Positions 28,734 to 32,711 of a stretch of 64,000 nucleotides of DNA are shown here, in pieces. The notes beneath the pieces were generated by a model. The model ran no database searches. It saw only the letters and a list, made by a program, of their open reading frames with translations, and was not told where the DNA came from. The position numbers and the translations under genes were made by a program. The first letter of the stretch is position 1. Every line of letters starts with the position of its first letter. Source of the DNA: Gymnodinialimonas sp. 202GB13-11 (lineage in GTDB: Bacteria > Pseudomonadota > Alphaproteobacteria > Rhodobacterales > Rhodobacteraceae); assembly GCF_040932485.1 (NCBI RefSeq), contig NZ_JBFRBH010000001.1, positions 2,790,001 to 2,854,000 on the forward strand, in the 5' to 3' direction.

Positions 28734-29426
28734 TCAGGTTTTTCGAAAAGTCAGGTAATGCGGCGTACGTCCTTCGCGGAGTGCTTTCTGTTCATACCGC
28801 GTCGAGTACCAATCATCCCAAGGTTCGCGCCAATCCGACGCGGCCTCAGCCAACCAGTCAAAACCTGCTTTCGGCACCTCTTCCAAGGTTTGGCGCACAT
28901 AATCCGGAATGTCCGTGGCCACGCGGAACTCGGCACCCGGCTTTAGGACCGTCGACAGAGGGGCTAGATGTTCTGGCGTGACAAAGCGGCGTCGGTGATG
29001 GCGCTTTTTCGGCCAGGGATCAGGATAGAGCAGGAAGGCCTTGGAGATGCTCTGCGGTGGCAGAACATCAAATAGATCTCGCGCATCACCGGGATAGACG
29101 CGCAGGTTTTCGACGCCAGCCTGCCGGATCTTACCCAGAAGCATCGCAACGCCGTTGATGTATGGCTCGCACCCGATGATCCCGACATCGGGGTTCGAGG
29201 CGGCTTGATGCACCAGATGTTCACCCCCGCCAAAGCCGATCTCGAGCCAGACATTTTTGCCGCCGAAAAGCGACTGAAGGTCCAGCGGTGCTCGGTCAGG
29301 GTTCACATCCCAGTCAACGGGCCCGGGCGATAACGCCTCTAAATCCTCAGCCAGGTAACGTTCCTGGCTGTCCTTGAGGTGCTGGCCCTTGCGACGGCCG
29401 TAAAAATTGCGGTGTGGACGTTCCAT
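28734..29426 (-). CDS. trmB: tRNA (guanine(46)-N7)-methyltransferase
   Basis: SAM-dependent enzyme producing m7G46 in tRNA. The 230-residue protein shows WLEIGFGGGEHLVHQA (SAM motif I), IGCEPYINGVAMLL and the signature LYPDPWPKKRHHRRRF. The C-terminal DIPDYVRQTL...WYSTRYEQKA is also typical. It belongs to the metK-hyp-trmB stretch at the end of the phoH-ybeY-corC-lnt-metK gene group. Confidence 0.97.
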   Translation of the reverse strand: MERPHRNFYGRRKGQHLKDSQERYLAEDLEALSPGPVDWDVNPDRAPLDLQSLFGGKNVWLEIGFGGGEHLVHQAASNPDVGIIGCEPYINGVAMLLGKIRQAGVENLRVYPGDARDLFDVLPPQSISKAFLLYPDPWPKKRHHRRRFVTPEHLAPLSTVLKPGAEFRVATDIPDYVRQTLEEVPKAGFDWLAEAASDWREPWDDWYSTRYEQKALREGRTPHYLTFRKT

Positions 29427-29457
29427 GGCTGGCGCTTAACGGTCCGGGTGCGGACGC

Positions 29458-29934
29458 TCAAGTCCCGCTGCGTTCGGCGCGTTTGATTTGCCCCCGGATC
29501 GCAGCCCAGAAAAACAGACGGTATACCAACATCAGGAATACGACGAGAACGCCAAGCGGCAGGAACGCGATAATGAAATCGCCGCCAATTTCTCGCTGCA
29601 AGTCCGCGAGAGCAGTGGGGTTTTGCCACAAACGCAAATAGACGACGCCGCACATCACGGCAACGAACAGGAGTGCACCGATGACCGCCAAGCCCCAGCC
29701 CTCGCCGCCGGTCATATGACGCTGTTCATGACGATAGAAGATCTGCGCCAACTGCAAGGGAGGGAAGATCATGACCCCTACGAAAATTCCAATCGCGAAT
29801 GGCCCGCTGGACAACGTCATGGCAATATCAGGCGCAAATTGCGCGAGAAGATTTGAGCCGCCCCAGATGAAGGCGAACAGACTAACTAGCGTCAGTGCGA
29901 ATCGCATGACGTAAAAGCCGAAAGACTTTTGCAT
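29458..29934 (-). CDS. Hypothetical four-helix inner-membrane protein
   Basis: A 158-residue protein with four predicted membrane helices (MRFALTLVSLFAFIWGG, FAIGIFVGVMIFPPLQLAQI, GWGLAVIGALLFVAVMCGVV and IIAFLPLGVLVVFLMLVYRL). The start MQKSFGFYVMRF at ATG 29934 is 4 nt after the metK stop, so it is cotranscribed with metK and trmB. No domain recognised. Confidence 0.7.
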   Translation of the reverse strand: MQKSFGFYVMRFALTLVSLFAFIWGGSNLLAQFAPDIAMTLSSGPFAIGIFVGVMIFPPLQLAQIFYRHEQRHMTGGEGWGLAVIGALLFVAVMCGVVYLRLWQNPTALADLQREIGGDFIIAFLPLGVLVVFLMLVYRLFFWAAIRGQIKRAERSGT

Positions 29935-29938
29935 AACC

Positions 29939-31120
29939 TTAGAGCGCGCCTTTGATTGCGTCAGCCAGATCGGTGCGTTCCCATGAGAAACCGCCATCGG
30001 CCTCCGGCGCACGGCCAAAGTGCCCGTAGGCCGCGGTGCGCTGATAGATCGGCTTGTTCAGACCAAGATGCGTGCGGATACCGCGTGGGGTGAGGTCCAT
30101 AACCTGCCCAAGGGCCTTCTCAATCTCGGCCTCATAAACCTGTCCCGTCTGGTGCGTATCGCAATAGATCGACAGGGGTTTAGCTACGCCAATCGCGTAA
30201 CTCAGCTGGATCGTGCAGCGATGTGCAAGCCCTGCAGCCACCACGTTCTTGGCAAGGTAGCGCGAGGCATAAGCCGCAGAACGGTCCACCTTGGTCGGGT
30301 CTTTGCCCGAGAATGCGCCGCCGCCATGGGGCGCAGCGCCGCCGTATGTGTCCACGATGATCTTGCGGCCCGTAAGGCCAGCATCCCCGTCCGGGCCGCC
30401 GATGACGAATTTGCCGGTGGGATTCACGTGCCACTCGGTCTCAGCGCTGATCCAACCCTCGGGCAGTTCTTCGCGGATATAGGGTTCAACAATTGCGCGC
30501 ACGTCGTCGGAAGACAGGCTTTCGTCGAGGTGCTGCGTGGACAAAACGATGGAAGTCACACCGACCGGCTTTCCGTCTTCGTAACGCACCGAAAGCTGCG
30601 ACTTCGCGTCGGGGCCAAGAGCGGGCTCAGCGCCGGATTTGCGGACATCTGCCAACCGTTTCAGCACGGCATGCGCATAGTGGATGGGGGCAGGCATCAG
30701 CTCAGGCGTTTCACCGCAGGCATAGCCGAACATGATCCCTTGGTCGCCCGCACCTTCATCCTTGTTATCTGCCGCATCGACGCCTTGCGCGATGTGGGCG
30801 GATTGTTCGTGCAGCAGGTTGGTGATCTCCACGGTTTCGTGGTGGAATTTGTCCTGCTCGTAGCCGATGTCGCGGATGCAATCGCGCGCAATGGCATCGA
30901 TGCGACCCATGTATTCCTTCAGCTTTGCCTGATCGCTCAGGCCCACTTCGCCACCAATCACAACGCGATTGGTCGTGGCAAAGGTCTCTGCCGCCACGCG
31001 CGCTTCGGGCTCTTCAGCTAGGAATGCATCCAGAACGGCGTCGGAGATGCGGTCGCAGACTTTATCCGGGTGGCCCTCAGAAACAGATTCCGAAGTGAAG
31101 AGGTAGTTGTTGCGCGCCAT
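29939..31120 (-). CDS. metK: S-adenosylmethionine synthetase
   Basis: Makes SAM from methionine and ATP. The 393-residue protein begins [20 protein letters not shown] and has [40 protein letters not shown] and [20 protein letters not shown], the MetK signatures with metal- and ATP-binding residues. It is preceded by a SAM/SAH-type riboswitch that includes its Shine-Dalgarno GGAG (31129-31132), so translation should fall when SAM is abundant. Confidence 0.98.
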
Positions 31121-31170
31121 GGGGAGTGCTCCATTGTCTGTTACGTCCCACGTCAGGAAGCCGTTGTGGG
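31121..31170 (-). ncRNA. SAM/SAH riboswitch upstream of metK
   Basis: The minus-strand leader matches the small Rhodobacterales SAM/SAH riboswitch. P1 is CCCAC (31170-31166) with GTGGG (31151-31147). It closes a loop reading AACGGCTTCCTGAC, and AATGGAGCA follows downstream. GCTTCC in the loop can pair with GGAGC (pseudoknot), which hides the GGAG Shine-Dalgarno. As I remember published examples, P1 and the pseudoknot strand are almost adjacent; here about 11 nt separate them. It should control translation initiation, since no terminator stem is present. Confidence 0.88.
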
Positions 31171-31205
31171 AATTGCGAAGCGCTTACGCCCCTTTGCAAA
31201 CAGGT

Positions 31206-32711
31206 TCAATGGGCCTTTCGGAAACGTGGCCATGCAATGCCCGCGCCTGTGACAAATACCGCAAGTAGGATCACCGGCAGATGGCCAAAGCGGGCGTAAA
31301 GCGTTGGTGGCAAGGCCGCTGGCAATTGGGCGTCAATCACGCCATCCACATCCATTGGCAACGCCTCAATGATTTGACCATGGGCATCAATCACGGCCGA
31401 GATTCCAGTGTTCGCTGCCCGGATCAAAGGCAGACCCTGTTCGGCCGCCCGCAACTGCGCCAGTGCAAGATGCTGGTAAGGCATGGCGAAACTGCCGAAC
31501 CACGCGTCATTGGTGACCTGTACCAACCAGTCGGGCCGGTCCACGCGTTCGATGTAGTGTGGAAAGATCGCCTCGTAACAGATCATCGGAAAGGCACGTC
31601 CGAATGGGCCGAGGTCCATAACCGCAGGCCCCTCACCAGGCCGATAGCCACCGGACAATTGCTGCGCCAACCCGGCGAGACCAAGGTCATCAGCGAGGCC
31701 GCGCAACGGCATGTACTCGCCAAACGGCACGAGATGGTGCTTGTCGTAGACCTGCACGACCGCTCCGTCGGCATCGAGATGGACCAGCACATTGCGCGGC
31801 TCGACCCCGGCATATCGCTGGCCGCCGATCAAAACCTCCGCGCCGTCGGCAGCAAGCGCAATCCTCGCCCGTGCCTCCTCTGAACTGCGCAGGATCGTGG
31901 GCAGGCTGGTTTCCGGCCAAATCACGAGATCGGGCTGGCTGCCTTCGGCCGTCAATGACAATCCACGGTCAAAGAAGACCGGGATCATGTCAGGCTCCCA
32001 CTTGAGGTGTTGTGGTGCGTTGATCTGCACGACCCGGATGGTGGGTGCTAGGGGCGCAGGCAGCGGCCCGGTCCAGGGAACCATGGCAACTGAAACGCCC
32101 ACAATCAGTGGGACCACCGACAGCAGCGGATAGCGCGTCAGAACCAAAGCGCCGGAAAGCGCCGCGATCAAAACGGTCAAAAGGGTGAGGGATAAGGGCC
32201 CACCCAAACTGGACAAAGCCAAAGCCTCCGTCCCGATCAGCCCGTGGCCGGGTTGCGCCCATGGCAAACCACTCAAAACACGGCCCCGAGCAGCTTCTAC
32301 CAAGGTAACGAGCCCCGCAAAAACGATCGCGCGCGACCCGTGCGGCGGGCAGAGCAGCGCGGCAGCACCACCCGCCGCAGCCCAGAACAACGCCAAGCCA
32401 CCGGCCATCAATACGATTGCAAAAGGAGCCATCCAGCCATGGGTCGTGGCATCCACGAAGAAAGGCTGCACGATCCAGTGCGTGGCAACGCCGAACCAGC
32501 CCGCGCCCGCAAACCACGCCCGCCAAGCCGCCGCTTTGGCGTCAGGCGCGGTCGCGACCAGGGCGCAAACCAGCGCCAGCGCCGGAAACAAAAGAGGCCA
32601 CAGATCAAATGGTGGAAGTGCCAGTGCTGCCAACGCGCCGCTGAATGCGGCCACGCCGCGCCCCTGCCATCGGCCCAAACCCTCAAGGCTTGCGCGCAGG
32701 CGCTGCCTCAC
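31206..32711 (-). CDS. lnt: Apolipoprotein N-acyltransferase
   Basis: Inner-membrane enzyme adding the third acyl chain to lipoproteins. The 501-residue protein has an N-terminal multi-helix region (1-220) and a periplasmic nitrilase domain with the catalytic triad visible: Glu267 in VIWPETSLP, Lys324 in VYDKHHLVPFGEYMP and Cys378 in FPMICYEAIFPH. The start is GTG 32711, overlapping the corC stop (GTGA). It lies in the phoH-ybeY-corC-lnt-metK order, with the riboswitch in the 85 nt after it. Confidence 0.97.
   Translation of the reverse strand: MRQRLRASLEGLGRWQGRGVAAFSGALAALALPPFDLWPLLFPALALVCALVATAPDAKAAAWRAWFAGAGWFGVATHWIVQPFFVDATTHGWMAPFAIVLMAGGLALFWAAAGGAAALLCPPHGSRAIVFAGLVTLVEAARGRVLSGLPWAQPGHGLIGTEALALSSLGGPLSLTLLTVLIAALSGALVLTRYPLLSVVPLIVGVSVAMVPWTGPLPAPLAPTIRVVQINAPQHLKWEPDMIPVFFDRGLSLTAEGSQPDLVIWPETSLPTILRSSEEARARIALAADGAEVLIGGQRYAGVEPRNVLVHLDADGAVVQVYDKHHLVPFGEYMPLRGLADDLGLAGLAQQLSGGYRPGEGPAVMDLGPFGRAFPMICYEAIFPHYIERVDRPDWLVQVTNDAWFGSFAMPYQHLALAQLRAAEQGLPLIRAANTGISAVIDAHGQIIEALPMDVDGVIDAQLPAALPPTLYARFGHLPVILLAVFVTGAGIAWPRFRKAH

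Follow-up and report, generated by a model that had tools for sequence, protein, structure and literature searches.

The leader of metK in the window (the whole 64-kb stretch of DNA analyzed here) carries an ordinary SAM/SAH riboswitch of Rfam family RF01727 that controls metK translation, a reading to which we give a probability of about 0.96. It is an already-known riboswitch in its usual place and with the usual linker length, and the locus leaves the picture of the SAM/SAH family unchanged.

The aptamer and its genomic context

When the window was scanned against all of Rfam with cmscan, RF01727 matched positions 31127-31175 on the minus strand with a score of 55.4 bits (E value, 2.4e-9), above the gathering score of 40. 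The alignment covers the full model (positions 1-49 of 49) and contains neither insertions nor deletions. This element was the sole Rfam match at gathering score in the window; SAM-II and SAM-V, which resemble it in being pseudoknot riboswitches that bind SAM (as described in part of PMC7367207), gave no match at that score. A covariance-model search of the entire genome returned this single RF01727 match, and the same model found none in 14 control genomes. The first-pass annotation had proposed a SAM/SAH riboswitch on metK, with the conserved core, UGGAGCA, and a P1 helix of CCCAC/GUGGG. All of these are present on the minus strand, the family match and the adjoining metK bear out the proposal, and the covariance-model scan suggested as a check gives no low score to speak against it. 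The placement at 31121-31170 needs adjustment by a few bases.

The aptamer lies between lnt and metK, and all three are on the minus strand. The upstream neighbor, lnt (31206-32711), encodes apolipoprotein N-acyltransferase (TIGR00546, 251.8 bits; cutoff, 132.9), and the aptamer starts 30 nt past its stop codon. The regulated gene, metK (29939-31120), encodes a methionine adenosyltransferase of 393 aa (TIGR01034, 493.2 bits; cutoff, 309.4); it directly follows the aptamer, with its ATG 6 nt downstream of UGGAGCA. A scan of 29300-31700 for sigma-70 promoters found none, with 0.6 expected, and is thus uninformative. A gene for a 186-aa protein of the ABZJ_00895 family (29458-30018; NF038216, 42.9 bits), flanked by metK and trmB, was also observed on the same strand.

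This arrangement is widespread. Of the 292 genomes searched in the order, 269 have an RF01727 match, as do all 13 genomes of the genus. Among the matches listed, 154 distinct sequences (the 152 of the linker survey described below plus loci L182 and L203) were compared for their neighboring genes. In 151 of these, metK is downstream; in the remaining three, the sequence stops 5-27 nt past the aptamer. The upstream gene is lnt in 145 of the 154. The window locus is consistent with the reports, in the parts of PMC2864571 and PMC4239095 drawn on here, of a family found only upstream of metK and only in Rhodobacterales.

P1, the predicted pseudoknot, and proposed control of metK

In the cmscan alignment, P1 is formed by UCCCAC (31166-31171, minus strand) and GUGGGA (31146-31151, minus strand). 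Six of its seven model pairs form in the window; the outermost is a U/C mismatch, a small departure that counts against an ordinary riboswitch. The helix itself is well conserved. In the 152 sequences from the matches listed, standard pairing at the four variable P1 pairs is seen 150, 141, 145, and 129 times, whereas 500 shuffles, which ignore relatedness, reached at most 129, 119, 128, and 115 for the same pairs. At the three positions beyond these pairs, toward the outside of the helix, pairing is at or below the shuffle level.

The pseudoknot would be formed by the loop strand GCUUCC (31156-31161, minus strand) and the 3' strand GGAGC (31128-31132, minus strand), the latter containing GGAG, the Shine-Dalgarno sequence of metK. 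We take this pairing by homology from the published structure. The window has every letter named in the pseudoknot pairs in the part of PMC7367207 that numbers them, so the pairing is possible; the same source describes the second U of the loop strand as bulged in the reference crystal structure. The two strands are invariant and were fixed by the survey pattern and therefore carry no covariation signal. When the leader is folded by a method that excludes pseudoknots, P1 appears in both the minimum-energy and the centroid structures, and the stability of the leader is not above that of shuffles (z, -0.51), as expected for an element so small that is folded without its pseudoknot. In the minimum-energy structure, the partner of GGAGC is not the loop strand but an upstream GCUUC. 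As a conserved competing strand, this upstream GCUUC was rejected: it occurs in 3 of 152 distinct sequences among the matches listed, against a shuffle mean of 6.2.

How would such an element act on metK? The published model, as given in parts of PMC7367207 and PMC10516623, is one of ligand-OFF translational control, in which SAM or SAH stabilizes a pseudoknot containing the Shine-Dalgarno sequence. By analogy with this family mechanism, we posit that in the ligand-free state the P1 stem-loop alone would be stable and the GGAG Shine-Dalgarno sequence accessible. SAM or SAH would then bind between P1 and the pseudoknot helix, and in the bound state the loop strand GCUUCC would pair with GGAGC and hide the Shine-Dalgarno sequence, thereby turning off the production of SAM synthetase.

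Could there be an additional layer of control in this genus? A palindrome is visible at 31118-31135, and a hairpin of AUGG, which overlaps the Shine-Dalgarno sequence, with CCAU at the start codon might compete with the pseudoknot or damp ligand-free translation. If so, the ligand-free state would be partly closed, and the switch would have a different set point. Of the 12 distinct genus members among the matches listed, 11 have CCAUG, versus 31 of 141 others, and the short segment folds with a mean energy of -2.85 kcal/mol in the genus versus -1.42 kcal/mol in the others, differences that are uncorrected for relatedness and involve letters common by descent. However, the hairpin has only four pairs and is weak, and the congener L161 is predicted to fold differently. 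We regard this extra layer as improbable and favor the ordinary riboswitch described above.

Length of the linker

The first-pass annotation had also held that the linker between P1 and the pseudoknot strand is lengthened and that this may change folding or the discrimination between SAM and SAH. The letters on which this idea rested are as described: on the minus strand, 11 letters, ACGUAACAGAC, separate P1 (CCCAC/GUGGG) from AAUGGAGCA. Is this long for the family? We compared distances from GUG to UGGAGCA by means of a survey pattern consisting of the exact core, any 3-33 nt, and then UGGAGCA, which occurred in at least 119 stretches of the genome collection. The survey was supplemented by whole-genome searches of the order (30 loci, the best scoring from the 269 genomes with a match) and of the genus. 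Together, these sources gave 161 loci and, with the window, 162; the pattern matched 160, of which 152 were distinct after dereplication on the core plus short flanks, a step in which the window's own copy (L001) was merged with the window.

The linker (31134-31145, minus strand) has 12 unpaired letters, and the distance from GUG to UGGAGCA is 15 nt, which is not unusual but the most frequent value in the relatives compared. Among the matches listed, the gaps of the 152 distinct sequences (window included) are 13 nt in 7, 14 in 38, 15 in 66, 16 in 26, 17 in 11, 18 in 3, and 19 in 1; that is, 45 are shorter than that of the window, 66 are equal, and 41 are longer. Loci L123 and L140, which the regular expression missed because CGGAGCA replaces TGGAGCA, also have a gap of 15 nt when counted by eye. 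Counting unpaired letters after the contiguous P1 gives 12 for the window and a median of 11; across the 160 matches listed, with duplicates included, the number is at most 11 in 105, exactly 12 in 25, and above 12 in 30. One of the window's 12 is due to the U/C mismatch at the outermost P1 model pair.

The closest comparison is with the experimentally studied reference, the SK209-52 RNA of Roseobacter sp. SK209-2-6 (RF01727; L068 in our survey), which was the original in-line probing RNA according to the part of PMC2864571 consulted. The window resembles it in the core, P1, the pseudoknot strands, and metK immediately downstream, and the GUG-to-UGGAGCA distance is 15 nt in both. The window differs in the letters of its linker, in a P1 that is rich in CCC/GGG and has the mismatched outermost model pair, and in having A rather than G at position 25 of the published numbering, A being the Rfam consensus as well.

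Two observations are in favor of a lengthened-linker variant. The linker letters of the window deviate from the A/U-rich consensus of the Rfam alignment, and among the 13 loci of the genus, 15 nt is the longest class (four loci, versus 14 nt in two and 13 nt in seven). Against it stand the modal length of 15 nt among the relatives listed, the identical length in SK209-2-6, and an Rfam alignment without insertion, and on these grounds lengthening was rejected. As for the supposed effect on the ligand, the contacts named in the available part of PMC7367207 are with the core and with U44 at the 3' end of the linker, and the same account states that the aptamer does not discriminate between SAM, a sulfonium, and SAH, a thioether. 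No sign of changed ligand discrimination was found in the linker survey, the Rfam alignment, or this published structure, and a literature search on linker length, SAH, and riboswitch returned no title concerning the SAM/SAH riboswitch. An altered folding or ligand choice by way of a longer linker is thus unsupported, the length being both modal and that of the in-line-probed RNA, and we consider this variant very unlikely.

Why, then, did the linker seem long? As described in part of PMC7367207, the crystallized construct was made without the segment that connects P1 with the pseudoknot strand, and we guess that this omission may explain why a shorter linker had been expected. Although the crystallized RNA lacks it, the linker is kept to a narrow range (13-19 nt, mostly 14-16, among the matches listed), so that an 11-nt linker is in itself no sign of altered ligand choice.

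A decayed, nonfunctional copy of the riboswitch is scarcely credible either: one P1 mismatch and a score ranking tenth of 13 genus members could be cited for it, but the core letters are all intact, metK is intact and correctly spaced, and the score is well over the gathering threshold.

Order genomes without a match and duplicated metK

Twenty-three genomes of the order had no RF01727 match, and the 20 of these that were listed were examined further. A search of these 20 with laxer filters found no RF01727 hit that reached the cutoff. Fourteen of them (L189 to L202) carry a single other genus label, g7, in which other genomes do have the riboswitch. In all 14, metK is divergent (56-58% identical to that of the window) and starts a few nucleotides downstream of an open frame whose translation ends in DHYRY; both of the two such frames that were scanned are ahcY, the gene for S-adenosylhomocysteinase. 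Judged from the sequences, this looks like replacement of metK, apparently displaced into an ahcY-metK operon, together with loss of the riboswitch.

The other six genomes (L183 to L188), with four genus labels, have a metK 68-80% identical to that of the window, and their metK leaders contain no recognized RF01727 match. One genome (G131; loci L182 and L203) carries metK in duplicate. The copies share 86% and 85% identity with the metK of the window, each has its own SAM/SAH riboswitch, and one of the two lies behind a frame whose end resembles that of ahcY.
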